From: a virus
Virus record (IMG/VR): IMGVR_UViG_3300012926_000041
Span: 1 to 47,333 of that record
DNA: 47,333 nt
Strand: one strand, 5' to 3'
Part shown: positions 7,813 through 46,797 of the stretch, one piece after another
Layout: the number at the start of each line of letters is the position of its first letter
How positions within the stretch are numbered: the first letter of the stretch is position 1
Translations under genes and position numbers: made by a program
The notes under the pieces: generated by a model
The model's database searches: none
What the model saw: only the letters and a program-made list of their open reading frames with translations
What the model was told of the DNA's origin: nothing

Positions 7813-9192
7813 CTACTTCTTCTTGCCTTTCATCTTCCGGAGACGATCAAGGGCATTTTTGACATCGCCCTTCGAGGACTTCTTGTCGTCCTCATCATCG
7901 TCATCCTCTTCGTCTTCGTCGTCCTCATCATCGTCGTCATCCTTGGACTTGGACTTCTTCTTGGACTTCTTTTCGTCTTCGTCGTCCTCATCCTCATCAT
8001 CGTCGTCGTCTTCTTCCTCCTCCTCCTCGTCGTCATCATCGTCCTTCTTGGACTTCTTCTTGGACTTCTTGGACTTTTTGTCGTCCTCGTCATCCTCGTC
8101 GTCATCCTCATCGTCGTCTTCATCCTCGTCGTCCTCATCGTCCTTTGACTTGGACTTCTTGGATTTGTCCTTCTTGGACTTCTTCTTCTTTACGCTGTCT
8201 TCGTCTTCGTCGTCTTCCTTGTCATCATCTCCGTCATCATCGTCATCATCGTCGTCATCATCATCGTCGTCTTTTTCATCATCGTCATCGTCGTCCTCAT
8301 CCTCATCGTCATCTTTGGACTTGGATTTCTTGGACTTCTTTGACTTTTTGCTCTTTGAAGAAGACTCATCATCGTCGTCATCCTTGTCATCGTCTTCCTC
8401 ATCATCCTCATCATCTTCTTCGTCTTCATCGTCGTCCTCGTCTTCATCATCATCCTCCTTCTTGGATTTCTTGGACTTGTCTTTCTTGGACTTTTTCTTC
8501 TTTTTGCTCTCTCCTTCGTCCTCGTCATCGTCCTCCTCATCATCGTCGTCATCACCGGAGTCTGAGGCACCGCCCTCGATCATCTCGATGATGTCCTCAG
8601 GCTCCGGGTACTCCACAAGCTCGTCAAGATCACTCGCCTTTTTCATGATTCTCTCCACTTTCAAAACCTGACTCGACTCTTTCGCCGTCCGTACTGCATA
8701 CTTGGTATCAATTCCTTCCCCAGTCTTCTCGATGATGATGTCGTAGCCCTTCTGGGGATCTGATATGTCGCCCCACTCATCGTCCGCAAAGTACGACAGG
8801 ATCTGTTCATAGATCTGAGGGCCTGAAGCAAACACCATCGGGACGTTGTCCCCGGCCTTCCGGTCAAGGATGTTGTAGAAATAACGCTTCCTTGCCTTGA
8901 ACTTCTTGGCCAGCTCGATGTCGCCCGGATCCTTTGACTTGAACAGGGTGTTGACCATGTCGCAAGCGGGACATTCCTTACCAACATCCTTTGGGCAAGC
9001 AATGGAGCTGTCCCCGATGTTGTAGTGGTAGGAAGCCTCTTTGCAGAACGAATCCTGATCCCCCTTCGGAGGAAGAATCCGGATACGATTCTTTTCGTGT
9101 TCAGGCTTCCACCAGTTGCGGCCACGGCTGTCCTTCTTCTTCTGGACATCCTGCATCCGCCGCTTCATCTTCTTTAGATTGACGCTACCCAT
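7813..9192 (-). CDS. T4 gp32-like single-stranded DNA-binding protein with giant acidic/lysine tail
   Basis: 459 aa. The N-terminal 200 residues carry the gp32-like core: a basic start, WWKPEHEKNRIRILPP, then a zinc site built from H56, C66, C74 and C77. From about residue 209 to 448 the chain is nearly only Asp/Glu runs alternating with Lys/Ser blocks such as KSKKSKK, ending in a short basic helix-like segment. Acidic C-tails are normal in SSBs for recruiting partners, but usually a few dozen residues. The alternating charge blocks are unusual and may drive condensate formation (inference). It neighbours the UvsY-like and RecA-like genes. Confidence 0.82.
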   Translation of the reverse strand: MGSVNLKKMKRRMQDVQKKKDSRGRNWWKPEHEKNRIRILPPKGDQDSFCKEASYHYNIGDSSIACPKDVGKECPACDMVNTLFKSKDPGDIELAKKFKARKRYFYNILDRKAGDNVPMVFASGPQIYEQILSYFADDEWGDISDPQKGYDIIIEKTGEGIDTKYAVRTAKESSQVLKVERIMKKASDLDELVEYPEPEDIIEMIEGGASDSGDDDDDEEDDDEDEGESKKKKKSKKDKSKKSKKEDDDEDEDDDEDEEDDEDDEEDDDKDDDDDESSSKSKKSKKSKKSKSKDDDEDEDDDDDDEKDDDDDDDDDDDDDGDDDKEDDEDEDSVKKKKSKKDKSKKSKSKDDEDDEDEDDDEDDDEDDEDDKKSKKSKKKSKKDDDDDEEEEEEDDDDDEDEDDEDEKKSKKKSKSKDDDDDEDDEDEEDDDDEDDKKSSKGDVKNALDRLRKMKGKKK

Positions 9193-9679: not shown

Positions 9680-9866
9680 TGCTGATCTTCCTCAGAGTTA
9701 GATTCTTAACGTACCCAAATGCCCGTTTGAACTCGTGACAGTTCCTACAATTCCTACAATGCCCAAGATACTTTTTCCGGTCTTCCTTCCTGGTTAGATG
9801 GCACTGACGAACACAAAGACATTCGCAGTGAACTGTTCTTGGCCATTGACGAAAGTAGATTGTCAC
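9672..9866 (-). CDS. Small cysteine-rich protein
   Basis: 64 aa from a GTG that overlaps the TGA of the polymerase/UDG gene; it ends inside the start of the UvsY-like gene. Cysteines are arranged as HCECLCVRQCH and HCRNCRNCHEF, which can hold one or two zinc ions. The rest is basic. No family recognised. The double overlap with its neighbours supports a real coding region despite its size. Confidence 0.5.
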   Translation of the reverse strand: MTIYFRQWPRTVHCECLCVRQCHLTRKEDRKKYLGHCRNCRNCHEFKRAFGYVKNLTLRKISNG

Positions 9867-11239
9867 AGGAAATTCTGAATCGTCTCAGAGAAGTTTTTCA
9901 GTGCTTTTCGGAGGATTGGGAGATTTGCGTTTCGCTCGTAGAGGACGCTGGCAGGGTGGATACAGTACGTCACCCAGGCTTCCGCCCGGTTATTCCACTC
10001 TGTCTTCCCGCTCCACTCCGTGATGCCCTTATTGACCTTCCTAAAGTAATATAAGGCGGTATTCCCGGATGCTAAGATGAATTTCGGTTTGAATCTTCTT
10101 ATGGCCTCAGTTGCCCACGGGCACTTGGAGACATAGGTGATGTTAGGCAATTTATTATTTGGAGGACGGCAAGAGACGGAATTTGCGACAATAACGTCAC
10201 TTCGACTGATGCCAACTCGCTCAAGCTCTTGAAAGAGTAGCTTACCTGACTTCCCCACAAATCCTCTACCCTCCAAGTCCTCTTGCTCTCCAGGTGCTTC
10301 ACCAAGCACCATGACATTGATCTTCCCGATACTTGGAGGAACTGGAGCCTTACAGCCTTGGTGCAACGGGCACAAGGTACAAGCTTGTACTTTTTTCTTC
10401 CACTTCGCTTCATTGAAGCCATCCAGATCCAAGCCTCCAACAATTGGTATCTTGATTTTCCCCGGCTTGCCCGCTGCGATCTTGGACATCAGCTGAAAGT
10501 CCTCGATCATGACATTTTGTTTACGTGCAAACGGAACGTTCACCTTGAAGATAGCAACTTCGCCTTTGATATTTTCAATCGTCTCTTTCTTCCGTTTGTA
10601 AAGATCAGGCTTATAGATTCCCATCGTGAAGGTGGAACCATCGTCCAAGTTGCCATAGATGCCCCCTAGGGCATCTGCAGTCCCGGCCTTCCCGGTTCCG
10701 GCTTGTTTTGCCCGTTCCTTATAACCAAACTTCACGGATGTTGCCTGAGCGACAATGTTCCGCAGCTCCATATCTTTACAGCTATGGTCAATGTCTTTGA
10801 TCTTTTGGATCGGGATGGCATTCATGATCAGCTTACAAAGTCTACGGTATTCTCCGAAGATGTCGCTGCTGATCTTGAAGTTTAGAGATTCCTGCTGATC
10901 CGTTAGAACATCGTCCAGCTTCATCTCCCAGTCTTGCTCGATGTTCTTTTCTTTTTCCTTAATGATCTCAAGGATCTTCTTTGTTCCGAGAAGAGGATAC
11001 AGTTCATCAAAATGCATCTTCCAGAGCTTTGTATTGACTTCTCCAAGCAGCAGGTCAAAGCAACCACTGTTGATCAGCATCCGGACAACTCGGACATTGA
11101 CTTTGCGCCGATCTACTCGCTCAATGAACTGCTCTAGGCTCTTGAACTCGCCGCCGCATTTTTCTCGAGCTTCAAGGATTGCTCGTTGAGCAGTTTCGCC
11201 GCACATCTTGACCTGAGACAGACCAGCTCTTAATTTCAA
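9863..11239 (-). CDS. DNA polymerase III alpha C-terminal half fused to family-4 uracil-DNA glycosylase
   Basis: 458 aa from a TTG with GAGG upstream; an in-frame TAA lies five codons before. Residues 1-110 continue DnaE where the upstream ORF stops: helix-hairpin-helix (LSQVKMCGETAQRAILEARE, then a VDRRKVNVRVV segment). Residues about 180-275 look like the DnaE OB fold. From about 280 on is a family-4/5 UDG: Fe-S cysteines in CTLC, SCRPP and KCPW, the GEAPGEQED motif near 312-320, GRGFVG, and the late IHPASVLY motif. So the polymerase's DNA-binding end and a uracil-removing enzyme are one chain. A sigma-like gene separates it from the catalytic half. Confidence 0.85.
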   Translation of the reverse strand: MKLRAGLSQVKMCGETAQRAILEAREKCGGEFKSLEQFIERVDRRKVNVRVVRMLINSGCFDLLLGEVNTKLWKMHFDELYPLLGTKKILEIIKEKEKNIEQDWEMKLDDVLTDQQESLNFKISSDIFGEYRRLCKLIMNAIPIQKIKDIDHSCKDMELRNIVAQATSVKFGYKERAKQAGTGKAGTADALGGIYGNLDDGSTFTMGIYKPDLYKRKKETIENIKGEVAIFKVNVPFARKQNVMIEDFQLMSKIAAGKPGKIKIPIVGGLDLDGFNEAKWKKKVQACTLCPLHQGCKAPVPPSIGKINVMVLGEAPGEQEDLEGRGFVGKSGKLLFQELERVGISRSDVIVANSVSCRPPNNKLPNITYVSKCPWATEAIRRFKPKFILASGNTALYYFRKVNKGITEWSGKTEWNNRAEAWVTYCIHPASVLYERNANLPILRKALKNFSETIQNFL

Positions 11240-11246
11240 TGGATCC

Positions 11247-11849
11247 TCACTTTAGAACATCAGCAGTTGCCCTGCTGTTCCCAAACATCTTTTCCCTTAT
11301 CGTTCCTCTTGCCCGGTAAGCAAGCGCCCTGATCCTATTGGCAGTCCCACCGTACAGTGCAGCAATCTCTTCGTAAGGCTTCCCAAACATATAGTGTTGA
11401 ACGAAGGCCATTCTCTGGCCATACGTTAGCGTTTCAAGAACTTCAGCAAATTTATCTTTGAACTCATCATAAATGATTTGTTCAAGCCCTTCTCTCCCGT
11501 TTGCCAAAGACTCAAGCCGCTTAAAGACATCTCGCTGGCTTGAAGTATTCCGCTTTGTATCTCTATAATGATGTCGAAAGACATTTAAGAGGATTGAATA
11601 CGCCCAAGTCCTAGGATTTCTTGGTTTGAATTGGTTGTGGTAATGGAACGCCCTTGAAATTGCCTCATCAGTTATCTCCGTCGCAATAGACTCATTGTGA
11701 GTCCATCTGTAGGCCGTCCTTATGTACTTTGACCGATACTGAAAGTAGTCGTGCTCACTCGGAGACAGTCCAGCCGTCTCCGCTACGGTTGATATCCGGC
11801 GGTACAGCTTTGATGCCCATTCGTTTAGCTTCTTTAAGCGCAATGTCAA
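11247..11849 (-). CDS. ECF-like sigma-70 factor inserted between the two polymerase halves
   Basis: The ORF shows both sigma parts: region 2 (YRSKYIRTAYRWTHNE, TDEAISRAFHYHN, then a WAYSILLNVFRHHYRD helix) and region 4 (LETLTYGQRMAFVQHYMFGK, then PYEEIAALYGGTANRI as the helix-turn-helix). This is the layout of a small ECF sigma factor. The start is unclear: TTG at 11849 has AAGGA upstream, an in-frame CTG at 11768 would avoid most overlap with the polymerase, and ATGs exist near 11873-11894. Its stop TGA is eight bases before the UDG-fusion start. It could direct host RNA polymerase to phage promoters. Confidence 0.72.
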   Translation of the reverse strand: MTLRLKKLNEWASKLYRRISTVAETAGLSPSEHDYFQYRSKYIRTAYRWTHNESIATEITDEAISRAFHYHNQFKPRNPRTWAYSILLNVFRHHYRDTKRNTSSQRDVFKRLESLANGREGLEQIIYDEFKDKFAEVLETLTYGQRMAFVQHYMFGKPYEEIAALYGGTANRIRALAYRARGTIREKMFGNSRATADVLK

Positions 11850-14283
11850 TCTTTCCTTCGGCAGACGCAGCATCATCTCCATCGACAGATCCATAATTTA
11901 AGAATGCCGTGAAAAACTCAAGCGGATACTTGATCTTCAGCCAGATGGTGAGGTAACTTAGGATTGCATATTCAACTGCGTGACTCCTGTTGAACGCATA
12001 CACTCCGAAAAACTTTAGATTCTCAAAGAATTCCTCTGCCTCGTCATACTTCATCGTTCCCTTCTTGACACATCCCTTTGCGTACATCTTTTTGTACTCG
12101 CGCCACTTGTCCGTTCCTTCAGACTTTGAGATCACCTTCCTGACTTGATCCGTCGTCTTCCAAGGGATTCCGGCCATGTTGAATAGGAGGAACATAATCT
12201 GTTCCTGATAGATGATCTGGCCACAGGTTGATTCGGTAATCCCTCGATGAATGTCATTGTAATACTTGACCTTCTTTCGACCCAGCTTGATCTCCTGGTA
12301 CTCCTGAGTGATCCCGGCCTTCAAGCATCCCGGTCGCCATAGGGCAGAAGCATCTGCGAGCGTTTCAAAGTCAGATACATTCAAGTCCTTACAGTATTTC
12401 TGTAGGCCCTTAGAGCCAATCTGAAAGCCGCACACCGTGTTCCCGGCTGCGATCTCCTTGTAGACTTCTTCCTTATGAAGATCAATCTTATAGTAGTCAA
12501 TGTCTCTGCCATGCTTCTCTCGGATCAGCCGCTTGGCCTCACTGAGGACCGAGAGTGTTGACAGGCCAAGCACGTCAAGCTTCATCAGCCCCATCTGTTC
12601 AAGGTCTTCCTTATCCCAGTTGACGGTGAGTGTCCCCCTTCGGTTCACAAGATGGCAGTTCCCAGAGTACCTCAGGTCATTTTTGCTAACGACAAATCCT
12701 GCTGCATGAATGCCACAGGTCTTGATCTGTCCTTCAATTTTCGAAGCGTACTTAATGACATGAGGATACTTCTTATAGAAGCGTTTTGCCTCTTCAAAGA
12801 TCTCGACCGTATCCATGATGCTGAAAGAGGCTCGAGCATCCATCTCAGGCCGGATCAGAATGCATTTTGACATCGCATCTGCTTCTTGCCTTGGAACCTC
12901 AAAGAGCCTCGAGACGTCCCGGACAGCTTGCTTCCCGCGCATCATTCCAAAGGTTGAGACATGAGCAACGTTCCATTCTCCGTACTTCTCTTTAAGGTAT
13001 TTCTCAATGAGATGCCGCTTGCGATCTTCAAAGTCAATGTCAATGTCGGGCAGGTCTACTCGCCCTTCAGAGATGAATCGTTCGAAGATGAGATTGTGCT
13101 CGATGGGATCAACCTCAGTAATATGCAAAAGATAAGACACAAGGCTGCCACCAACAGACCCGCGACCGTGTCCCACAAGGATGTCGTTAGATTTAGCCCA
13201 GTTGATAACATCAGCAACAAGAAGCATATAACGTACAAAGCCACCATTGACCATCGCTTCGAGTTCATACGCTGCCCTCTCTCGATACTTTCTTGACGTC
13301 AATCCTCTTTTTTCAAGTTCCTGCTGGCACTTCTCGATCAAGTAAACCGTTTCGTCAATTCCTTTTTCGAGGACTCGAGGGAGTTCAACTGGAATTTTGT
13401 TCAGCTTGAACTGACACTTCTCCCCGATCTCCATCGTGTTTAGGATTGATTCTCTGGCCACTTCCCGATCAATCCCCATTAGCTTCAGAGACTCATACAT
13501 CTCCTGAGCATCCCGCATGTAGTTCAGATGTGTATCAAATTTCCAACGCTTCGGATTGTTCCAGGTCATTCCTCGCTGACCAATTCCAAGAATGACATCG
13601 TGGACTTTGTGGTCTTTCTCGCACAAGAAATGAATGTCATTTGTTGCAATCAGCTTGATGCCAAGCTCCTCAGCCGCAACAAGAGCTTGAGCGTTGATAT
13701 TCGTCTGATGGTCAAGATCGTGCAGCGGCATGATCTCGGCATAAAGATCTTGCTTGAAGGCTTCGTAATATTTTCCAAGGAGATCAATCCCGTTCTCCGC
13801 ATTCCAGAAGGGACTCGAGGCACATCCCGTCTGAATGATGACATCTCCGGCCCAGTCGTGCTCTAAGGGATATTCCATTGGCAGGAAGGCTCTCGAGGAC
13901 CAGCCTTTCTTGGAAATGCCATTAATGTTTGCATATCCTAGACCAACTAGCAGCTTCTTCAGGCCGCGCTCATTCTTGGCATGAGCAATGAGGTGAAGAT
14001 TTTTTTGCTTTAAATTGAAATCATCCTTCTTATCCCAGTGCTCCAGCATGTAAAGTTCAACTCCAAAGATTGGCTTGATCTTGTATTCCTTTTTCTCCTT
14101 GTCATAGCAAGCATTATTGAACTTGACGATTCCGTCCATGCTCCCATGATTTGTACTCGCAATATACCGATGCCCCTTTTCAATTGCGCCCTTAACAAGC
14201 TCCTTTGTCTTGACGGCCCCATCCAGGAGACTGAACTCATCGTGGACGTGCAAATTACAGAAATCTTTGTTCTTCAGCGTCAT
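11755..14283 (-). CDS. dnaE: DNA polymerase III alpha (DnaE), N-terminal catalytic half
   Basis: 842 aa. PHP domain first (HVHDEF at 12-17, TNHGSM, HLIAHAKN, TNDIHF), then the PolIII palm and fingers. GRGSVGGS and the two metal aspartates in LPDIDIDF lie near 410, and the third aspartate in MKLDVLGLSTL near 566. The protein stops at WTVSE, right after the family motif PPDIN, exactly where the helix-hairpin-helix part should follow. That part is found in the ORF at 9863-11239. All catalytic residues are present, so the half is probably active when joined by its partner. PHP has Asn for the usual Asp in T-D-H. Confidence 0.93.
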   Translation of the reverse strand: MTLKNKDFCNLHVHDEFSLLDGAVKTKELVKGAIEKGHRYIASTNHGSMDGIVKFNNACYDKEKKEYKIKPIFGVELYMLEHWDKKDDFNLKQKNLHLIAHAKNERGLKKLLVGLGYANINGISKKGWSSRAFLPMEYPLEHDWAGDVIIQTGCASSPFWNAENGIDLLGKYYEAFKQDLYAEIMPLHDLDHQTNINAQALVAAEELGIKLIATNDIHFLCEKDHKVHDVILGIGQRGMTWNNPKRWKFDTHLNYMRDAQEMYESLKLMGIDREVARESILNTMEIGEKCQFKLNKIPVELPRVLEKGIDETVYLIEKCQQELEKRGLTSRKYRERAAYELEAMVNGGFVRYMLLVADVINWAKSNDILVGHGRGSVGGSLVSYLLHITEVDPIEHNLIFERFISEGRVDLPDIDIDFEDRKRHLIEKYLKEKYGEWNVAHVSTFGMMRGKQAVRDVSRLFEVPRQEADAMSKCILIRPEMDARASFSIMDTVEIFEEAKRFYKKYPHVIKYASKIEGQIKTCGIHAAGFVVSKNDLRYSGNCHLVNRRGTLTVNWDKEDLEQMGLMKLDVLGLSTLSVLSEAKRLIREKHGRDIDYYKIDLHKEEVYKEIAAGNTVCGFQIGSKGLQKYCKDLNVSDFETLADASALWRPGCLKAGITQEYQEIKLGRKKVKYYNDIHRGITESTCGQIIYQEQIMFLLFNMAGIPWKTTDQVRKVISKSEGTDKWREYKKMYAKGCVKKGTMKYDEAEEFFENLKFFGVYAFNRSHAVEYAILSYLTIWLKIKYPLEFFTAFLNYGSVDGDDAASAEGKIDIALKEAKRMGIKAVPPDINRSGDGWTVSE

Positions 14284-27970: not shown

Positions 27971-29401
27971 CTACTTTGCGTTGATGATCTTGAGCATCTT
28001 GGCAAACACAGCGTCCGTGAGTTCCTCGAGCCTCATGACGCTGATGGCCTTGTCTCCCATGAACTTCGGGAGTTTGTCCGTCAGGATGCTGACGCCAATC
28101 ATGATGATGTTGGCCTTCCGCTTGAGCTCATCGGCAAACTTCCCCATCTCCTCGATACCCGAGTTACATTCATTGGCATCGGTGAGGAAGAACATCATGC
28201 GCCGATCCTCCGGACGCGCCAGGAGACGACGAGCACCGTAGGCTGCTGCATCGTGCGGGATATCAGTACCGGCATCGCAGCGATAATTCCCGATCCGGTC
28301 CCTAACACTGACCCAGGGATCATTGAAGCTCTTATACACCATGGCGTAATGGTTATAAGAGAAGTAAGCCCCTCCCTGGTAGGAAAGGACTTCGAACTGG
28401 ATCCCTAGAGAGTTACAAACCTCTCCAAGCGCATAGGCCAGGACTCCTGCGGTCCCATTCTTGGAGAACAGCAGGGGATCTCCTGTTGCGCTGACCCCGC
28501 CATACGTGACCAACGTTCCACGACCGGGGGTTTGACGCATCGAGGATGAATCGTCCAGGATGATGGTGATGGCCGTCTTGATCGTCTTGCGGTCTGCCTT
28601 CTTGGCAAAGATATCATCCTTGCCCGCCGCCACGAGCCGAGCAACCTGGCCCCGGTCGACCAGACCCGATTTCTGCTGACGCTGGCGAGAGACGCGGGCT
28701 TCAGCCTCCATGGCCAACTGAAGCTGACGACGGAGACGGGGAACGATCTCCAGAGCCTTGTTACGGATGGGGATGGCCCGCTCGCCATTAGCCTTCGGCC
28801 TGAAGATCTCGAGGCTACGGGGCATGCCCGATTCCATCGAGTTCACCATCTCATCCCCGATTTTCTCAAGCCAGTCTTCTGATGCGGGCTCTCCAGGGAC
28901 ATCGTTGTCAATGCCGCTATCGGCATAAAGCATGGTTCCGCCAGAAAGCGTGACCCCTACCTTCTTCTTCTGAGGGCCATTGGATCCTGACCTAGACGTC
29001 GGCACGGGCAGTTCCCAGTCCTCATTTTCTTCCGCTGCCTCTTCCCCTTCCATCTTGGCGATGTGTTCGCGCAGTTCCTTTTTCTCTGCCTCCGTCAATT
29101 CAACCTTGATGAACTTGTCATCCTCGCCCGTATTGATGACAATGTCCTTGCCGTCCTCGAGAGCTTTCTTGATCTCCTCTGCGGTACGCTCCGTGATGAG
29201 GACGGCAGCCACGTCAATCTTGTCGAAGATGTCCTTCAGCTTTTCCTGAAGAGGCTCCGAAAGACCTGCCATTGGATTCTCGTTCAGATCTGAATAGGAG
29301 CCCGCATGCTCCTCGCAACCCCACTCGCCGCATTTCGGGCAGATGCCACGATCCGGCTTGCCATACTCGCCACCGATGATTTCGTCTTCGTTGTGATCCA
29401 T
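27971..29401 (-). CDS. CobT-like VWA-domain protein
   Basis: 476 aa. The first 250 residues are charged and partly disordered, with a CPKCGEWGC zinc-like start. The C-terminal VWA domain begins with the MIDAS motif ILDDSSSM near 281-288; GTDIPHDA and FFLTDANE follow as the later metal-binding loops. The order fits CobT/BchD-type chelatase subunits working with a CobS-like AAA+ ATPase, encoded just upstream (29596). Actual cobalt chelation is not shown: such pairs also remodel or assemble other metal enzymes. Confidence 0.72.
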   Translation of the reverse strand: MDHNEDEIIGGEYGKPDRGICPKCGEWGCEEHAGSYSDLNENPMAGLSEPLQEKLKDIFDKIDVAAVLITERTAEEIKKALEDGKDIVINTGEDDKFIKVELTEAEKKELREHIAKMEGEEAAEENEDWELPVPTSRSGSNGPQKKKVGVTLSGGTMLYADSGIDNDVPGEPASEDWLEKIGDEMVNSMESGMPRSLEIFRPKANGERAIPIRNKALEIVPRLRRQLQLAMEAEARVSRQRQQKSGLVDRGQVARLVAAGKDDIFAKKADRKTIKTAITIILDDSSSMRQTPGRGTLVTYGGVSATGDPLLFSKNGTAGVLAYALGEVCNSLGIQFEVLSYQGGAYFSYNHYAMVYKSFNDPWVSVRDRIGNYRCDAGTDIPHDAAAYGARRLLARPEDRRMMFFLTDANECNSGIEEMGKFADELKRKANIIMIGVSILTDKLPKFMGDKAISVMRLEELTDAVFAKMLKIINAK

Positions 29402-29407
29402 AAAGTC

Positions 29408-29587
29408 CTATCCTTTCGGTTGATTCAGACAAGGTTCACAGTACACATGCCCAGCCAGCTCATTGAGCGGCTCCGTCTTGCTCTTGCAGAGATGGCATTG
29501 ACGCTTCTCTTTCCGGAGTCCTTCCCCGGTACAGAAGCATCTCAGCTTTTCCTGCTCCGTCTTTTTCGGTTTGTAGTTGTATCTCAT
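29408..29587 (-). CDS. Small zinc-ribbon protein between the AAA+ and VWA genes
   Basis: 59 aa from the ATG at 29587, after GGAGATGCC. CFCTGEGL, CHLCKSKTEP and CEPCLNQ provide zinc ligands. It sits inside the CobS/CobT-like pair, so it may be an accessory piece of that complex, but this is position only. Confidence 0.5.
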   Translation of the reverse strand: MRYNYKPKKTEQEKLRCFCTGEGLRKEKRQCHLCKSKTEPLNELAGHVYCEPCLNQPKG

Positions 29588-29595
29588 GGCATCTC

Positions 29596-30759
29596 CTACT
29601 TGGGCCACTTGAGACTGATGATGATCGGATCCACGAGCTTGCGCTCATCCGAGAGAAGCGTGTTGAGATAGATGAGCTCAATCGCTTTCCGACATCCCCA
29701 TTTCATCGCTTTCTGTCCGATGGCGATGATTTGGCGTGTGGAGCAGATCACCGGATTGCTTTCATCCTTGGCTTTCTGGCGGATGGCGCAGGCCATCACC
29801 GTCAGGACGTTCGCAATCTGGCCCTGAATTCCTGCTGCCATGAGAATCTCTTGTTCGTTGGGGGCATAGTCGATGTAGTAGACTCCTCCCTCCCAACGAT
29901 TCAGAAACGCAGCGTTCATGGCCTGAGAGCCCTGATACAAACCGGACTCGTCCAACTTGAAGCTGTTGCCCGTTGCGACGATGGTTAGCATTCCACCAGG
30001 GATCTTGATTTCCTCGCCATCAATCTCGATGGACCGGGATCTGTCTCGAGTATTCATCTCGAGTACTCGATGGAACTTGAAAAGGACTTCGGGCTTGCCC
30101 GCCTGAACCTCATCTGCGAGATACAGGACTCTTTCGCCCTTTGCGGCGAGACGACAGGCCCGAGCCAGTTCTCCATCTTTGAACTCCGTGATGCTGACGC
30201 CATCCTCCACGGTCACGATGGTTGCGCCGATCATGTTGTCCACGACCGTTTCGCCATCAAAGTTCTGCCGGATGAAGGTTGCCTTGATAGCCTTGGAAAG
30301 AGCTTGGGCCGTTACCGTCTTCCCCGATCCCGTAGGGCCATGGAAGAAAAGGTTGCCGCCCATCTCGCAAGCATCCTGCATCCAAGCGAAGTCTGGGACA
30401 GGAATGTAGTCCCCCATCTTGCTTGCTGGAGCAGGAGTAAAGGTAGGGGCTGCGGGAGCCGATGTCCATCCTCCCGCAGGGGCAGCCATCGTTGCGGCCT
30501 TGACCAGCGGACTTGCGCTGCTGGTCATCTTCATCTCCCAGAGGCAATCGTCATTCAGAGGATTGCCATGGGCCACAACGCGGACCCCATTCAGCTTATT
30601 GATGGTTCCGGCGATGTTCTGGACTTGGCAAATCGTCTTGCACACGCGATACGATCCAACCAACTCCTTCGAACTACGCTTGCCAGTCTTGAGCGCCTCA
30701 AACATCTTGTGGGCGCCCGACATCACAAAGACATTGACTAGCTCCTCGAGCTTTGCCAT
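29596..30759 (-). CDS. MoxR/CobS-like AAA+ ATPase
   Basis: 387 aa, AAAGGACCACTCC before the ATG. Residues 1-80 are an alpha/beta part, 81-115 an Ala/Pro linker, then the AAA+ domain: Walker A GPTGSGKT (141-148), Walker B VLYLADEVQ (211-219), sensor TIVATGNS, and AAFLNRWEGG with the Arg typical of MoxR/CbbQ/CobS. With the VWA gene downstream this is the standard ATPase-plus-VWA pair. The partner complex and target are unknown. Confidence 0.78.
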   Translation of the reverse strand: MAKLEELVNVFVMSGAHKMFEALKTGKRSSKELVGSYRVCKTICQVQNIAGTINKLNGVRVVAHGNPLNDDCLWEMKMTSSASPLVKAATMAAPAGGWTSAPAAPTFTPAPASKMGDYIPVPDFAWMQDACEMGGNLFFHGPTGSGKTVTAQALSKAIKATFIRQNFDGETVVDNMIGATIVTVEDGVSITEFKDGELARACRLAAKGERVLYLADEVQAGKPEVLFKFHRVLEMNTRDRSRSIEIDGEEIKIPGGMLTIVATGNSFKLDESGLYQGSQAMNAAFLNRWEGGVYYIDYAPNEQEILMAAGIQGQIANVLTVMACAIRQKAKDESNPVICSTRQIIAIGQKAMKWGCRKAIELIYLNTLLSDERKLVDPIIISLKWPK

Positions 30760-39527: not shown

Positions 39528-40457
39528 CTAGGCTCCCCGGAGCCCCATGGCAGTCAATTTCTCTTCCACTGCCTCAGTCATCAGACTTGCCCACTTGTCC
39601 CGGTTAAGCCAGCGCTGCCACATCTCCAATCCGTACTGACCGCGCTGGATCAGCTCTTGATCTGAAGTCTTGTCCAGAAACGCTCGAATCAAGTTGCCCG
39701 CGTCAGGAGCTTGTTCTTCCTTGAAGATCAGACAGCACTTTTCATAATCAATCTTGTTCTCCCAAGGCAACGTGTGGCCCGTACAGAATAGAGCAGGAAC
39801 CCTTCCTGCTGACATCGCTTCAAAGAAGCGATACGGAAAGACCTCCTTGATGGATCGACCGGCCAACGCAATCCGGGATTCCTGAAGAGACTTCTTGTAG
39901 GCTTCCATCCGTTTCTTCGCTTCAGGCGGATTATCACGTTCAAAATAGCCATGGAATTCAACATACTCTGAAAGGTCGCACTTCAAGCCGGTATGTTCAC
40001 GGCAAGAGTCTGCAGATTGCTTCCGGGGCTCATAGTTCCTCCAGCCGTGAAACGAAACATCATACTTGAAGCCTTCTTCAGGAACCGGCGCAAGATGAGC
40101 AAGCGGTTCAACGGGCCATGCCCATGAGATGGTGTTCTTATCAAATTTCTTCATGTACTGCTTGACATTACAGCGAATGAATTGACAGTTCAATCCATAC
40201 ACATGGTCAAAATCAGAGACGTCAAAAAAGACGTGACGCTCCTCTCGGCCTGGCATGTATTTCAGGTTCCTGATTTGAAGGATCTGTTCTGTGGTCCGAT
40301 AGTACATCGTCGCAACTGGAAAGATAAAGACATCGGCCTCATCAGGATTCTCTGTCTTGATGGTTCCGTCCAACCTCAACGTGCCCGAAGGAAGAATCTG
40401 ACAGCCTGGTAGTTCCTGTTTCTCAACTGAATACTCATAAGCTTTTAGCTGGCCCAT
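39528..40457 (-). CDS. Exostosin-like (GT47-type) glycosyltransferase
   Basis: 309 aa. Middle: FHGWRNYEPRKQS, YKKSLQESRIALAGRS, then FPYRFFEAMSAGRVPALFC, closely following exostosin/GT47 domain architecture (a capsular or heparan-type sugar enzyme shape). No signal or membrane segment. Start overlaps the next glycosyltransferase stop by 13 bases. Probably adds a sugar to a surface glycan or to phage particles; substrate unknown. Confidence 0.62.
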   Translation of the reverse strand: MGQLKAYEYSVEKQELPGCQILPSGTLRLDGTIKTENPDEADVFIFPVATMYYRTTEQILQIRNLKYMPGREERHVFFDVSDFDHVYGLNCQFIRCNVKQYMKKFDKNTISWAWPVEPLAHLAPVPEEGFKYDVSFHGWRNYEPRKQSADSCREHTGLKCDLSEYVEFHGYFERDNPPEAKKRMEAYKKSLQESRIALAGRSIKEVFPYRFFEAMSAGRVPALFCTGHTLPWENKIDYEKCCLIFKEEQAPDAGNLIRAFLDKTSDQELIQRGQYGLEMWQRWLNRDKWASLMTEAVEEKLTAMGLRGA

Positions 40458-41320
40458 TGAAGAGTCTCCTTTAGAAGATTTTCGATATGACGATACATAG
40501 CACAGTATTCAAGATAGATCAGCTCAATAGCTTCTGTCTGAAGCGGCCAGCCAGTGTAGTAAAAGCTTCCATCTGGCTTCTTCTGAAATTCGTGAAAGTG
40601 GTAGCAGACCAAGGGATAGGCTCCAGCCTTGAGGATCCCATCCTCTTTCCTGACCGGCCACTGAGAGATATTCCAAGGTCCAGCATTCACTCCGTAGTTC
40701 TCGAGGACCTTACAGCAGCAACGATATCTTGATGGCCAGGCATCAAGGTATTTCTGATCTCCAAACTTTCCGTCCTCCTGCTTGTAGTAGCACCACTCAA
40801 GACAGTCTTCGGCCCAGCGTTGTAGGCATTCCTGGCCCGTCACATTTCGCTTGAATGTAACCCATCCAACATTGAACAGTCCATTCTGCTCAAGGAATTT
40901 CTTTTCCGGGAGCAGTCGATGAGCCGTGATCCCAATCGAGCCTCCAACAAGTTCATCGTGAGCAATCTTAGGGTCATTGAAGAAAAAGAGATCTGCATCC
41001 AGATACGTGATATTTGTCAGGCCATTCTCGTTCATCAGGCCATCGCAGTACTGAGACGCCATGGTCCAACAGAATTCGCGCCAGTCCCGATTACCCTTTG
41101 CCTTGATGATGTCTTCGTTCTCAAAGTCCCGAAGATCGGTGATGACGCAGCCCTTCATCCATCCAAGCTTCTCAAGCTTCTTCAGGATTTCAACCGTCTC
41201 AACATCCATTGCCAGGATGTAGAGCATTGACTGCTCCGTGATGTGTTTCATCAGCGAAGCAAAGAGACAGAGTCCTTTTGCGAGATAGTTCCGGTCAAAT
41301 AGCGTTGCGTAATTTCTCAT
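40445..41320 (-). CDS. GT8-like glycosyltransferase
   Basis: 291 aa. NYLAKGLCLFASLMKH, then LYILAMDVETVEILKK; NITYLDADLFFFND holds the D-x-D of GT-A enzymes, and NVGWVTFKRN and GPWNISQW fit the acceptor side of GT8-like enzymes. A soluble retaining transferase is expected. Start and stop overlap with neighbours in this operon. Confidence 0.65.
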   Translation of the reverse strand: MRNYATLFDRNYLAKGLCLFASLMKHITEQSMLYILAMDVETVEILKKLEKLGWMKGCVITDLRDFENEDIIKAKGNRDWREFCWTMASQYCDGLMNENGLTNITYLDADLFFFNDPKIAHDELVGGSIGITAHRLLPEKKFLEQNGLFNVGWVTFKRNVTGQECLQRWAEDCLEWCYYKQEDGKFGDQKYLDAWPSRYRCCCKVLENYGVNAGPWNISQWPVRKEDGILKAGAYPLVCYHFHEFQKKPDGSFYYTGWPLQTEAIELIYLEYCAMYRHIENLLKETLQWAS

Positions 41321-42018
41321 TTGATCTTCTCACAAAGATACGAGACGTGCGAATAGCCCCCATCATCTGGAAGTGTAAAGATATTCTCCAAGTGAACGAT
41401 CTTGAGACCGGCCATCCTCAGGAGCATGAAGAATTCTGTTTCGCTGAAATGAATCTCGACACACGGGATTCCATAGGCAAGCTTCAGGTAATATGTTGTT
41501 GGCTTGTTGTAGAGAATCGGCTGGCGATGGAAGAGGACATAACGCTTTGAGACTCGGGCAGACTCAAAGACAACTGAACGGTAGTCCTTGATGTGGAGCA
41601 TGCAGCATCCCGAGTGAACAATGTCAAACTGCCCATCGTGGTAGCTGAGACGAGTTGCATCCTCAACATCAAAGTTGACGGTTGGATAAAGATCAGCAGC
41701 AAGAGCCTGAAAGTCCTTACTGAAGTCGCATGCCCGATAATTGTACTTGAAGCCTGCAATCCTCATGATCTTAGAGTAATAGGCTCCGGACGCACCAACA
41801 TCAAGGAAGGTGGTTTCTCGGCTATCTGGACATTGGATCCTGAACAGACATTGAACAAAGGCATCATAGGGCGCAATCTTTGCCCCCTTGGCATAAGCCT
41901 CAAGTTCATTCTTCACAACAGTTTCATATTGAAGCTTCGGGATCTCCTTTGAGAGCCAGCAGTTGCCAGCATCCTCCCAAGCCTTCCTGATCTCTTCAGC
42001 CGATTGTAACTCTTTCAT
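41317..42018 (-). CDS. Class I SAM-dependent methyltransferase
   Basis: 233 aa. TTFLDVGASGAYYSKIM is motif I, YRACDFSKDFQ motif II, FDVEDATRLSYHDGQFDIVH motif III/IV, and LFHRQPILYN the next strand. Lacks a DNA MTase catalytic motif such as DPPY or PC. Sits among sugar genes, so methylation of a sugar or glycan is likely. Overlaps neighbours by four bases. Confidence 0.72.
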   Translation of the reverse strand: MKELQSAEEIRKAWEDAGNCWLSKEIPKLQYETVVKNELEAYAKGAKIAPYDAFVQCLFRIQCPDSRETTFLDVGASGAYYSKIMRIAGFKYNYRACDFSKDFQALAADLYPTVNFDVEDATRLSYHDGQFDIVHSGCCMLHIKDYRSVVFESARVSKRYVLFHRQPILYNKPTTYYLKLAYGIPCVEIHFSETEFFMLLRMAGLKIVHLENIFTLPDDGGYSHVSYLCEKIK

Positions 42019-43094
42019 ACAAGCATCTCCTTGAGGACGTTTGCAATCCCTTCCATTTTCTTTCGGTAGTCATGCTCGATCAGCGTCCGCACTTGACCCT
42101 TGACCGCAATCTCGCCTCGCTGTTCAGGACGCTCAAGATAGAATCGAGCAAGGTCAGCAGCATGGTCAGCATCATTGTAGGTCGCGCACTCGCTGCCAAC
42201 CTCAAACATCTCTTTCATATTGATCTTATGATCCGTCAGGAGCAGCGCCCCCATTCCAGTCGTCTCAAATAGCTTCATATTGTTTGCGTAGTTTCGAGAT
42301 ACTTCCCCGTGTCGGTTCAAGACAATCTTGGATTGAGCAAGGATTCGGTACATGTCAAGTCCCCAAGCCTGCCCCTGATATTTTTTCTTCAACTCATAAT
42401 TGTCAGGAAGCGTCTCAACTCCATAGCCCCACCATTTGAATTCATGGACCCGGCTCGCTACTGTCTCAAGCATCTCAAGTCCAGCCTTCCAATGCGAAGG
42501 ATAGCCAACTCCGCCAACAAAGGTCAGATCGTTATTCCGGACGCTCTTTTTGGACTCGACCATCTCAAGCAGCCGGTTGTCAAAAGCAAGTCGGCTGAAG
42601 ACTCCTCTGACTCCTAGATTATTGAAGATCTCAACGTAATGCGGGAAGCTGGTGAAGATGACATCGCACATCTTGATATGATCTGGGGCCGGAAGCGGGC
42701 AGGAACACTGAGCGGCAATCAGCTTGACTCCATATTCATCCTTAATGAACTGAACCGTCGTCGGATCAAGAAACGAAAGATCCTGAAGGAACAGGACGTC
42801 AGGCTGATACCAGCGGACCTGATCAATCGCATTAGACTTTGGTCCAACATAGTCCCAATTGTGTTGACGATCTTGATGCCAGAGCCTTTGGAGTCGTTCA
42901 TCGTTGACAATGGCATCATAGGCTTCAAACCCAAACTCACTGATATTGAAACTGTAGGAATCCCCGGTCCCAAACATCTTTGAAAGGATGCCCTTCAGAA
43001 CGTCGTTGTAGGCCCCCTTGTATTCAGCGTCTGGAATAGACTTGATGAAGTCAGGATAATAGGTATCTAGGAAGAGGATGCGCAGCTTACTCAT
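42015..43094 (-). CDS. CgeB-like glycosyltransferase (GT-B)
   Basis: 359 aa from the ATG at 43094, which has AGGAGATTCTTCA before it and overlaps the aminotransferase stop. LRILFLDTYYPDF starts the first Rossmann fold, and DLTFVGGVGYPSHWKAGLEM and VLNRHGEVSRNYANNMKLFE, with GMGALLLTDHK, fit the CgeB/glycosyl-transferase group 1 C-terminus. Likely a GT-B enzyme for the same glycan. Confidence 0.68.
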   Translation of the reverse strand: MSKLRILFLDTYYPDFIKSIPDAEYKGAYNDVLKGILSKMFGTGDSYSFNISEFGFEAYDAIVNDERLQRLWHQDRQHNWDYVGPKSNAIDQVRWYQPDVLFLQDLSFLDPTTVQFIKDEYGVKLIAAQCSCPLPAPDHIKMCDVIFTSFPHYVEIFNNLGVRGVFSRLAFDNRLLEMVESKKSVRNNDLTFVGGVGYPSHWKAGLEMLETVASRVHEFKWWGYGVETLPDNYELKKKYQGQAWGLDMYRILAQSKIVLNRHGEVSRNYANNMKLFETTGMGALLLTDHKINMKEMFEVGSECATYNDADHAADLARFYLERPEQRGEIAVKGQVRTLIEHDYRKKMEGIANVLKEMLV

Positions 43095-44199
43095 TGAAGA
43101 ATCTCCTGATTGCACGGACAACGATGTCAACTTGATGCTCCTTCATCCCATACCAACACGGTAGGGACAGGACTGTTCGACAGTGGTCTTCCGTCTTCTT
43201 CAAGGAATAAGGGAAGTAATAATCCTTCTCAACCGGCTGACGATGAGCAGGGATTGGATAATGGATCATCGTCTGAATCCCTTCTGTCTCGAGAAAGGTC
43301 TTCAGATGATCTCGTTCATCAGAGTGGATAGGATACAGGTGAACATTCTCCCCATCTAGGACTTCAGAAGCCTTAATGTATTTCATGTTGTGAAGCTTTC
43401 TGAAGTAGCTTGCCCCAACAGCTCGACGATTGTCGTTTATCTTTTTGAGACTTCCGAGACGGATGCTGAGCATGGCCGCTTGAAGCTCATCAAGTCTTGA
43501 GTTGTACCCATAGAAAAGTTGCTTCCCTTCATGGAGTCCATAGTTCCGGGCAAGACGGATTCTTTCAGAGATTTCCTTCTTGTTGGTGAGAACCATCCCG
43601 CCATCACCAATGCATCCAAGATTCTTTGTTGGGTAGAAGCTGTAGCAGACAGCAGACGAAAGGGATCCAATCCGATAGTAGCTGGACGTTGAGCCAGCTG
43701 CTTGACAAGCGTCCTCAATGATTGAGATGCTGTGCTTTTCGGCAATTGGTGCCATCTTTTCAATGTGAGCAATCCTCCCATAGAGATGGACAGGAACGAT
43801 GGCCTTGACCCCTTCCATCATTCGCTTATCTTCAAGATGGGCCGGATCAAATAGGCCGCGCTCATCAACGTCAACAAAGCGGACTCGGGCACCTGTTGAC
43901 TTAATGGCCGTAACCGTTGCGGGAGCACTGTTCGCAACTGTCAAGACTGTATCCATATCTCCAATGCCACAGGCGGCCAGAGCCGTCGTAATAGCATCAG
44001 TCCCAGAAGCAACCCCGACACCGTACTGAAGCCCAGTGTAGTCTGAGAATTCAATCTCAAAGTCCCGGACTCTTTTCCCAAGAATGTACTGTCCTGATTC
44101 CAGCACGTCCTTGAAGACTTGAGTCATGCGATGGGCATCAGGATAAATCCCTTCGTAGAGATTATTGAATGGAACTACTGGCTTTTTCGAAGTCTTCAT
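43087..44199 (-). CDS. DegT/DnrJ-type sugar aminotransferase (FdtB/QdtB-like)
   Basis: 370 aa. PLP-enzyme of the sugar aminotransferase type: VASGTDAITTAL near 63-74, IIEDACQAAGS (160-170), PLP lysine K192 in FYPTKNLGCIGDGG, and LDELQAAML. Together with the FdtA-like ketoisomerase upstream it should make dTDP-3-amino-3,6-dideoxy sugars (Fuc3N or Qui3N type). Start overlaps the ketoisomerase end by 38 nt. The enzymes upstream of the ketoisomerase (RmlA, RmlB) are not in the window and may be supplied by the host. Confidence 0.85.
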   Translation of the reverse strand: MKTSKKPVVPFNNLYEGIYPDAHRMTQVFKDVLESGQYILGKRVRDFEIEFSDYTGLQYGVGVASGTDAITTALAACGIGDMDTVLTVANSAPATVTAIKSTGARVRFVDVDERGLFDPAHLEDKRMMEGVKAIVPVHLYGRIAHIEKMAPIAEKHSISIIEDACQAAGSTSSYYRIGSLSSAVCYSFYPTKNLGCIGDGGMVLTNKKEISERIRLARNYGLHEGKQLFYGYNSRLDELQAAMLSIRLGSLKKINDNRRAVGASYFRKLHNMKYIKASEVLDGENVHLYPIHSDERDHLKTFLETEGIQTMIHYPIPAHRQPVEKDYYFPYSLKKTEDHCRTVLSLPCWYGMKEHQVDIVVRAIRRFFNE

Positions 44200-44587
44200 A
44201 AACGTTCAAATAATCCTCGACATCATACGATTCTGAAGCGAGAACAAGACAAACGGTGTCCTTGTCAAAGCCTGTTAGTGTTAGCCAGTTGAGCGGAGGG
44301 ACAAGCAAGCCTTTCCTTGGGCTGTCGAGCGTCAGTTCAAACGAGCCATACTTGTTCTTGATGTGTGCATCAATTGTCCCACAGATTGGGATAATGAACT
44401 GATAACAACGCTTGTGAGCGTGGTTCCCTCGCTCCCTCCCTTCAGGGACATTTCGGATAAAGAAAGCCCGCTTGGGAACGAATGGAAGATCCTTGCCATG
44501 GAACTCAATCGGGACAAGGACTCCATCCTCTTGAGGATATTCCCGAAGCATGACAAAGACAGGGATCTCTACACGTACTGGAGACAT
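44162..44587 (-). CDS. fdtA: FdtA/QdtA-like dTDP-sugar 3,4-ketoisomerase (cupin)
   Basis: 141 aa from the ATG at 44587 (GGAGGGGAATGT ahead; overlaps the upstream stop). GNHAHKRCYQFI (HAHK 56-59) and GLLVPPLNWLTL are the characteristic cupin motifs of WxcM/FdtA-type isomerases. It turns dTDP-4-keto-6-deoxyglucose into the 3-keto form for the aminotransferase next door. The family is firm; which isomer it yields is not decided. Confidence 0.82.
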   Translation of the reverse strand: MSPVRVEIPVFVMLREYPQEDGVLVPIEFHGKDLPFVPKRAFFIRNVPEGRERGNHAHKRCYQFIIPICGTIDAHIKNKYGSFELTLDSPRKGLLVPPLNWLTLTGFDKDTVCLVLASESYDVEDYLNVYEDFEKASSSIQ

Positions 44588-45756
44588 ACATTCCCCTCCC
44601 AGTTCACAATGACGTCTAGATTTGGTTCCTTCTTGTAGAACCATTTGCGCAGAAGTCTCTGATCAGGGCCAATCGTATTTGGACCTGAACGGAACAGACG
44701 ACAGAGTGCCTTAGAGACATCTTCGTCATAGAGTTCCTTGATCCATCCTTTGGTCTTCCTCATGAAGCGAATTGGGCCTCCAGTTTTCTCAGCCGGAAAG
44801 ATCCACCACTTGTGGTCCTCTTCTTCGTCAAGGAAGAGAAATTCCTTGAAGGCACTAGGGACTGCGATGACTCCGCATTTTCCAATTCGGCTGATCTCTT
44901 TGAGTGCTGCCTCAGGATCATCAAGATGTTCAAGGACGTGAGAGCAGAACACATAGTCAAAATACTTGTCTGGGAAGGGAGTCTTTCCCTGAATATCTGA
45001 ATTGATCTTCTCTCCAGCAGGAGCATTATTGAGATGATTCTGAGAAACATCAAGATAGTGCGTTGCAATCTGTAATGGATATTTTCCAGGCCCAATGTCA
45101 AGGATTCTTGAGCCTGCTTTCCATGTCGTTCCGGAAGGGATTGCATACTCGACCGGGATTCTCCCATAAGGCTTTTGGAACCGGAGACAGAAGGCAGGAT
45201 AGAAGTGGATGTTTTGCTCTTCTTCAATGAAGACGAAGCCATGGGACTCAACAATCTTCTGAAGAAGAGTCCGCGTGTATGACATCAGGTGATAACCACG
45301 CTCATCTTTTCTTGGCCCAAGCAGATGGCGAATGAAGAATTCATCTCCGGTCTTTTTGAATTGACGTAGCGTCTCTTCGTGGTCCGGGACATCTAGGCGA
45401 AGAATCCCCCCTTCCTTCATCTTCCGGTCGATCTCATCCAGAGCTTGATGTGCTTCCGTAAGAGAGAGATGCTCAAACACATGACGCGCCAAAAGCTCCT
45501 CAATACTCCAAGTAGATCCCGGAAGGTCAAAGAATGTTCCGTACTCATCGCAGACCATCTCCTGTTGTAAAGGACCTGATCGAAGTTTCTCCATCGTCTT
45601 GTCCTGATGACGCCCGTAATACCTGTCATCCGTGGTAATCAAGGCAGAGACTAGGTCAGGACGGTCATGCGCAAGGAATGTCTTTGGTCCTCGCACATCA
45701 ACATTGATGTAGCCGTCCAGATACACCGACCCGCAGCCTACGTGTACTTTACTCAT
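44569..45756 (-). CDS. Tandem methyltransferase fusion
   Basis: 395 aa. First unit: KVHVGCGSVYLDGYINVDV and ARHVFEHLSLTEAHQALDEI, then LRLDVPD. Second unit from about residue 205: SRILDIGPGKYPLQIATHY, DIQGKTPFPDKYFDYVFCSH and LEHLDDPEAALKEISR. Both halves have the motif I-to-IV set of class I SAM methyltransferases. The 2-domain fusion could methylate two positions or one may be structural. Likely sugar or surface methylation. Confidence 0.7.
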   Translation of the reverse strand: MSKVHVGCGSVYLDGYINVDVRGPKTFLAHDRPDLVSALITTDDRYYGRHQDKTMEKLRSGPLQQEMVCDEYGTFFDLPGSTWSIEELLARHVFEHLSLTEAHQALDEIDRKMKEGGILRLDVPDHEETLRQFKKTGDEFFIRHLLGPRKDERGYHLMSYTRTLLQKIVESHGFVFIEEEQNIHFYPAFCLRFQKPYGRIPVEYAIPSGTTWKAGSRILDIGPGKYPLQIATHYLDVSQNHLNNAPAGEKINSDIQGKTPFPDKYFDYVFCSHVLEHLDDPEAALKEISRIGKCGVIAVPSAFKEFLFLDEEEDHKWWIFPAEKTGGPIRFMRKTKGWIKELYDEDVSKALCRLFRSGPNTIGPDQRLLRKWFYKKEPNLDVIVNWEGNVCLQYV

Positions 45757-46466
45757 CAGTAAACCTCGTTCAGAATTAATGGTCCACAGAGATGCTGAGT
45801 ACGATTGAAGACGTCAAGCATGTAAGGGAGATGAGGACGGTACTTGTTCATCAGATTCTCGGCATCTAGCTCTCTCCCAATTTGATTCTGACGTCGCTGA
45901 CTGTCCTGTTCTGAGTGATGCCAGATCCTTGCCCCTTGGATTGTTCCAATGCCAAGCCCCTCAAGAAGCACTCTAAAGGCAATACTATTGTCGTTGCCGT
46001 ACATCCTGACGACGCGGTCCATCCAGCCAATCTTGTTTCCAAGGGCTCTTGAGAGGATTCCAAAGTTGGCGTAGATCATCTGGTGGTATGTCTGGACAAC
46101 AAAGGGCAGTGTCCTCTCGGCATAGTACAGCGCCCCAAGTCCAATCTCTGGATGCTCTTCCATGAAATCAATTGCGGCACGGTCATAGCCGGGGAGGACT
46201 TCGGCATCATCATTGAGGTAGATGACCCACTTGCCCTTGCATTGAGCAAAGGCTTTGTTGTAACCATTGACGCAGCCTAGGCGTGGACGCTCTGGCAGGA
46301 TTCGGACATTTTCGGGGTAGGCCGTTTCATAAGGCTTGTCAGAGGCATCCGAGACAACAAGCTCCCAAGGAACTGTTGTCCGCTCAATGATGCTCTGAAC
46401 GAGCCGATTGAAAGGATTTGGCCGGTTCAGTGTGCCTGTGACCAGGGAAAGGACTGGATCATCCAT
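45756..46466 (-). CDS. Family-2 glycosyltransferase
   Basis: 236 aa from ATG 46466, after TTGGAGAAAACA; a longer start would overlap the holin-like gene. SLVTGTLNRPNPFNRLVQSI, WELVVSDASDKPY and GKWVIYLNDDAEVLPGYD (the D-D-A-E/DXD motif) are GT2 hallmarks. ARIWHHSEQDSQRRQNQ is like an acceptor segment. First gene of the sugar island after the membrane proteins. Confidence 0.75.
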   Translation of the reverse strand: MDDPVLSLVTGTLNRPNPFNRLVQSIIERTTVPWELVVSDASDKPYETAYPENVRILPERPRLGCVNGYNKAFAQCKGKWVIYLNDDAEVLPGYDRAAIDFMEEHPEIGLGALYYAERTLPFVVQTYHQMIYANFGILSRALGNKIGWMDRVVRMYGNDNSIAFRVLLEGLGIGTIQGARIWHHSEQDSQRRQNQIGRELDAENLMNKYRPHLPYMLDVFNRTQHLCGPLILNEVY

Positions 46467-46503
46467 TGTTTTCTCCAAGCTATCATTCTCATCAAAGCTC
46501 TTT

Positions 46504-46797
46504 CTACTTCCCTTGGATTGCCGTCTCATGCAGGTTGTGAGCCGCAATTGCGCCAGTTCCATACATGATCATGTCTTTAAGAGCGTCCATTAGCGTCTGA
46601 TCATGCATGTAGCCAATCACAAAGGCGCACAGGAATGGAATCGCAGGATAGAACCGATACAGTTTATCCTTCAGGCCAAACGCAACGATCTGGTCCGTGA
46701 TCCATTCTGAAGCGCCATTGACAGAGGCAACAATCCCTGCATTCAACGCAACGGTTGCTGGATCAGCATTCTGAATCAGCGTCATCAGTTCGTCCAT
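46504..46797 (-). CDS. Holin-like small membrane protein
   Basis: 97 aa. Three hydrophobic stretches: ATVALNAGIVASVNGASEWI, FYPAIPFLCAFVIGYM and DMIMYGTGAIAAHNL, separated by charged turns, as in small phage holins. No signal peptide. It follows the lipoprotein-like gene, so a lysis role is possible, but no endolysin is seen in the window. Confidence 0.45.
   Translation of the reverse strand: MDELMTLIQNADPATVALNAGIVASVNGASEWITDQIVAFGLKDKLYRFYPAIPFLCAFVIGYMHDQTLMDALKDMIMYGTGAIAAHNLHETAIQGK

Follow-up and report, generated by a model that had tools for sequence, protein, structure and literature searches.

The polymerase locus described here raises the question of whether a replicative DNA polymerase gene that lies in two pieces is a broken gene or encodes two chains of one working enzyme. 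In the window (the whole stretch of DNA that was analysed, 47,333 nucleotides of the IMG/VR virus record IMGVR_UViG_3300012926_000041), the dnaE gene for the DNA polymerase III alpha subunit (PolIII alpha) is found as two ORFs on the minus strand. The first (N-chain) closes with TGA at 11755 after the C-terminal residues PPDINRSGDGWTVSE. The second (C-chain) starts with TTG at 11239, with GAGG five bases upstream, and its N-terminus reads MKLRAGLSQVKMCGE; the ORF opens as MKLRAGLSQVKMCGETAQ. About 515 bases lie between them and contain a sigma factor ORF, which ends at 11247, eight bases before the TTG. The N-chain, the sigma ORF and the C-chain are each in a frame of their own. This layout had been given in a preliminary description of the sequence, with a first ORF of 842 residues ending in WTVSE and a second in a different frame, and the ORFs agree on it with the Pfam and phrog_405 matches. 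On phrog_405, a profile of the whole DnaE, the N-chain covered positions 40-861 (E 7e-245) and the C-chain 864-996. Because the profile resumes at 864 after 861, nothing is missing at the junction, and the earlier statement that the second ORF resumes the sequence with little or no loss is upheld by this alignment. Coordinates of the features are collected in the table.

Table. Features of the split dnaE locus in the window
Feature	Position	Strand	Description or evidence
DnaE/PolIII alpha N-chain	11755..14283	-	842 aa; PHP, palm, thumb, fingers
PHP domain	13732..14253	-	Pfam PF02811
Catalytic Asp pair D413/D415 (PDIDIDF)	13039..13047	-	invariant in alignment A1; alignment to Taq PolIII alpha
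Third catalytic Asp D570 (MKLDVLGL)	12574..12576	-	invariant in A1
WTVSE, N-chain C-terminus, first strand of the cut beta-hairpin (as read from the model)	11758..11772	-	A6 columns, L085 model
ECF-type sigma factor gene	11247..11768	-	TIGR02937 75 bits; PF04542, PF08281
DnaE C-chain	9863..11239	-	458 aa; HhH, helical region, OB, UDG
GCTGGTCTGTCTC near C-chain start	11215..11227	-	12/13 match with 11762-11774, across the sigma gene
Helix-hairpin-helix (HhH) part	11048..11233	-	PF14579 profile positions 23-83
OB-fold	10490..10774	-	predicted strands, C-chain residues 156-250
Family-4-like uracil-DNA glycosylase (UDG)	9869..10411	-	PF03167 4.3e-20; TIGR00758 1.5e-30

The N-chain matched the Pfam PHP domain, PF07733 and the finger domain PF17657, and it matched the structures of E. 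coli and Taq PolIII alpha. It scored 637.7 bits with NCBIfam polc, against a cutoff of 434.35, and residues 8-773 matched NCBIfam PRK09532, which, together with PRK07373, we take to represent the halves of cyanobacterial DnaE. All three catalytic aspartates are in this chain, as had been noticed before, and with the three domains they place it among the DnaE-type PolIII alpha subunits. In the PHP domain, nine candidate metal-site residues (H12, H14, D21, H46, E76, H97, C154, D216 and H218) were invariant in alignment A1. We assign them as candidates to the PHP metal motif HHDHEH[C/H]DH (PMC12926913). Inspection by eye gave no clear beta-clamp binding motif.

The tandem HhH and OB fold of DnaE-type PolIII alpha are also present, but in the separate C-chain. 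The HHH_6 match (2.7e-14) and the predicted OB strands agree with the placing of both elements in the second ORF by the preliminary description. The start of the HHH_6 profile falls within the N-chain, so that the C-chain covers the remaining positions only, and this part aligned to residues 887-947 of Taq alpha and 833-894 of E. coli alpha. In Foldseek, matches of the C-chain to PolIII alpha structures covered about 310 alignment columns. An AlphaFold2 model of the C-chain (pLDDT 85) contained HhH helices, a helical stretch, an OB fold and a UDG.

The UDG, overlooked in the preliminary description, makes up the last ~180 residues of the C-chain. It has the intact motifs GEAPGEQED and HPASVLY and the Fe-S cysteines C287, C290, C357 and C373, and it superposed on the T. 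thermophilus UDG 1ui1 with a VIA-align Z of 25.5 and an rmsd of 1.8 over 181 residues; motifs, cysteines and fold are thus those of a family-4 UDG (GEAPGxxED, HPA, four Fe-S cysteines). The PF03167 score was above its own cutoff, and the TIGR00758 score was 106.2 bits with a cutoff of 125.3. Since ThyX and a dUTPase_2-like protein are also encoded nearby in the window, a uracil-guarding role of the C-chain UDG, whose activity is predicted, is plausible. The polymerase activity is likewise predicted.

The closest genes were found on two IMG/VR contigs, L001 and L002, with identities of 83% and 82% for the N-chain and 77% and 74% for the C-chain. In both, dnaE is split at the same point as in the window, and the three gaps are different. 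In L001 there is no gap: the N-gene ends in ACA GAA TGA and the ATG of the C-gene overlaps its end (GAATGA). In L002 the gap is about 190 bases and contains a different ORF of 60 aa, and the C-gene starts with GTG. DnaE-type PolIII alpha is usually one polypeptide, although this trait is not strictly defining, and the three loci depart from it. The order of the neighbouring genes (p9672, UvsY-like, SSB, RecA and SbcD) is kept in L001 and L002.

The UDG catalytic motifs are altered in L002 and in the one-chain homologue L003. In the C-chain of L002 (8700-10079) they are degraded (GEAPREQED, and IPSGIAVY in place of HPAS) with the remainder conserved, which implies that not every member depends on catalysis by its UDG; the UDG of L002 perhaps has a non-catalytic, structural role.

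Comparison with related phages for an unsplit gene, which had been suggested in the preliminary description, identified L168 as the nearest one-chain relative (58% identity in the N part and 45% in the C part). It has one unbroken frame, 1,286 codons or longer, which reads DINKSLPGWKIIKDKKLLAGLAQVANCG across the split place. Among 88 phage DnaE loci that were checked, all 84 others whose contig reaches the split place continue there in one frame. In trees of the N part, the three split genes formed one clade (100/100) with L168 as sister (99/98), and the one-chain DnaE-UDG polymerases L003, L081 and L085 came next, with the one-chain L005 also around. Since one change on the tree suffices, the split is, by the trees, a single event that took place in a one-chain DnaE-UDG polymerase before the gaps received their inserts. 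Scans with A3 and A4 gave L001 and L002 as the only further split members, and a search of genome contigs gave none. The split group has three known members, all metagenome assemblies of uncultured phages, and no DNA-level match to isolate phages was found.

The cut position was located on an AlphaFold2 model of L085 that starts at the palm and has a pLDDT of about 90 in this region. The model has strands at residues 509-512 and 515-517 with a two-residue turn between them. By alignment, the N-chain ends at the equivalent of 512 and the C-chain starts at 514, placing the split at 513-514. We read the two strands as a beta-hairpin that is cut in its turn, just before the HhH. The break had been described as exactly at a domain border; it does lie just before the HhH, but the tight turn of a small hairpin is near such a border rather than at it. 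Both inner ends are conserved: the three split loci do not differ at G837, W838, V840 and E842, in the GWxVxE of the N-chain C-terminus, or at K2, R4, A5, G6 and L7, in the KxRAGL of the C-chain N-terminus (window numbering). When aligned with one-chain homologues, neither inner end has lost or gained a residue.

Synonymous differences between the split phages were near or at saturation, and dN/dS was 0.10 or lower for the N-chain, for the DnaE part of the C-chain and for the UDG part. This result indicated that the pieces are not dead fragments. Because both have been under selection since the cut, a natural two-part assembly is probable. The earlier proposal of a working two-chain enzyme is therefore well founded as regards a real split and functional chains, given the relatives, the unsplit L168 and purifying selection, while for the co-assembly of the two chains we infer it from conservation and gene order. 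Taken together, we consider it likely that the replicative family-C polymerase of this phage consists of two polypeptides that assemble without covalent joining and that descend from a split one-chain DnaE-UDG ancestor.

The strongest competing explanation is that the chains work independently: the N-chain would be a shortened polymerase that is sufficient by itself, and the C-chain a DNA-binding uracil-DNA glycosylase in its own right. Phages commonly carry free UDGs, and OB and UDG are absent from some phage DnaE proteins of the same wider clade (about 900 aa; L087, L088 and others). Even the shortest DnaE proteins retain the HhH, however, and none in the sample stops before it. Strong constraint has kept the start of the HhH and the first strand in the C-chain as well as the last strand of the N-chain, and the two genes have remained adjacent. 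We regard independent proteins as improbable for these reasons.

Much less probable still is a full-length protein made by recoding, bypass, splicing or an intein. The frames overlap in L001, where a frameshift could join them, but no slippery heptamer was seen at that overlap, the gaps in the window and L002 hold whole ORFs, and each C-chain carries a start codon of its own (TTG in the window, ATG in L001, GTG in L002). No Rfam match to a group I or II intron was found in the gap. The alignment with one-chain homologues contains no intein tail or intein residues, and the lack of extra residues at the inner ends excludes an intein or split intein. Local folds were unremarkable for a structured or slippery recoding site (z 0.14 and 0.74, and -1.8 at the border of sigma gene and C-chain). 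A decayed gene or a sequencing or assembly error is hardly credible, because, although metagenome assemblies often carry frameshifts, three separate assemblies have a common split point with different gaps and both chains are under strong purifying selection. The preliminary description had named two outcomes as fatal to its reading; both of them, an error of sequencing and a full-length product made by splicing or recoding, are thus effectively excluded.

For the two-chain polymerase we propose the following origin. The ancestor would have been a one-chain DnaE-UDG polymerase, in which a small frameshift (an insertion or deletion) at the turn of the hairpin that links fingers and HhH may have created an overlapping stop and start, as still present in L001. 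Such an overlap would turn the gene into two translationally coupled cistrons, and the coupling would keep their products together. The hairpin would consist of the last strand of the N-chain and the first strand of the C-chain, and their pairing, with the HhH and DNA contacts, would rebuild the enzyme. The C-chain would supply the DNA-binding HhH and OB together with a UDG that could detect uracil at the fork or excise it. The gap would later have taken in unrelated genes, namely the sigma gene in the window and the 60-aa ORF in L002. More tentatively, and with somewhat more doubt than confidence, we suggest an obligate heterodimeric PolIII alpha with a hairpin completed across chains. Its catalytic chain could then be made in another amount or at another time than the DNA-binding, uracil-reading chain, and the gap would be a site where genes, here that of a sigma factor, are taken up under the translation of the polymerase.

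The gene in the gap was correctly recognized in the preliminary description as an ECF-type sigma gene: its TIGR02937 score is well above the cutoff of 42.9 bits, and sigma regions 2 and 4 are both present. Its ORF has no ATG, GTG or TTG start outside dnaE; the candidates are a CTG at 11768 or ATGs within dnaE, up to 11894. The sigma gene does lie between the two pieces, but the split had been attributed to it, and since L001 and L002 are split without it, it did not cause the split. No sigma homologue was found in six records of related contigs, including those of L001 and L002, and a search among phages gave a single weak match. As the gene was found in the window only, it either arrived later or was lost from L001 and L002; on these comparisons later insertion, after the split, is simpler. 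The 12/13 match between the two sides of the sigma gene was reached in 0.3% of draws of random pairs of 66-base stretches. The copies are in the reading frames of the sigma gene and the C-chain, both as AGLS. We rejected the direct repeat as a scar of sigma insertion because each copy is made of native codons that have their counterparts in related genes; microhomology at insertion is possible only.

Split PolIII alpha had been called rare, and precedents do exist. In jumbo phages of group 2.2, a minimal PolIII alpha is split (PMC7824862); as proposed here, a phage family-C polymerase is found in two proteins for which reassembly was suggested. There, however, a minimal catalytic module is cut between the NTP- and Mg-binding subdomains, with the genes far apart and a family-B polymerase adjoining, whereas the window has a full DnaE with PHP, HhH, OB and UDG that is cut after the fingers, from PHP to fingers in one chain, in adjacent genes. 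Cyanobacterial DnaE is also split over two genes and joined by a split intein (PMC3919608), but by the PRK09532 match the cut is about 70 residues earlier, and the products are ligated, whereas no intein halves are found at the inner ends in the window. DnaE of Bacteroides phage BS-TP1 (L166, PQ571274.1) is cut around the equivalent of N-chain residue 400; a gene for a Dda-like helicase separates the pieces, and the end of the N-piece resembles a split-intein half. In Alicyclobacillus phage KKP_3916 (L165, OQ846916.1), DnaE is broken up at several places, and at two of these the insert is a homing-endonuclease-like ORF; all pieces are annotated as hypothetical proteins. Given the jumbo phages, BS-TP1 and KKP_3916, a split family-C phage polymerase is not new as a kind.

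A DnaE-UDG fusion, DnaEX, is known from some strains of Yersinia pestis and Salmonella enterica (PMC3919608). Its UDG (PF03167) is C-terminal as in the window, but it is one chain and the UDG replaces the OB and CTD, whereas our C-chain retains the OB fold. L168, L003, L005, L081 and L085 are one-chain phage forms that have the C-terminal UDG too. Family-4-like UDGs are also fused to phage polymerases in PaBG (PMC7412058) and phiLo (PDB 9qhs), but these are family-A polymerases in one chain with an N-terminal UDG. The polymerase of Methanothermobacter thermautotrophicus, as cited in PMC7776575 from Kelman 1999, is a replicative enzyme that is naturally in two polypeptides, but it is an archaeal family-B polymerase of unrelated fold. 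In the searched literature, with subscription papers and preprints outside it, the place of the cut, the absence of anything that joins the chains, the presence of the UDG in the C-chain and the series of intermediates appear to be new. That series, from one chain in L168 through the bare overlap in L001 to the filled gaps in L002 and the window, may record the birth of a two-subunit replicative polymerase. Complementation studies could use the cut as a natural place to divide PolIII alpha, and a uracil-DNA glycosylase would here be placed on a separable subunit of the replicase.

Other DnaE architectures were noticed among the loci. In L006 (1673-4642) and L007 (4012-7236), DnaE is enlarged at query residues 521/522 and 766/767 by inserts of about 265-280 codons that keep the frame and are probably inteins. 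Six loci (L087, L088, L089, L091, L092 and L094) form a clade nested among the DnaE-UDG polymerases in which DnaE ends after the HhH, at about 900 aa, and OB and UDG were lost or moved elsewhere. In L113 (5308-9327) the UDG is at the N-terminus of DnaE instead of the C-terminus. PHROG 7513, 13169, 12219, 21652 and 4335 resemble other DnaE pieces.

Elsewhere on the minus strand of the window, the single-strand binding protein (7813-9192) has a repetitive tail of Asp, Glu, Ser and Lys, ~250 residues long, and the reverse strand of its gene reads as an artefactual poly-Ser ORF. A CobT-type VWA protein adjoins a MoxR/dynein-type AAA ATPase at 27971-30759, and a sugar cassette at 39528-46562 contains glycosyltransferases, a DegT aminotransferase, an FdtA-like isomerase and methyltransferases.
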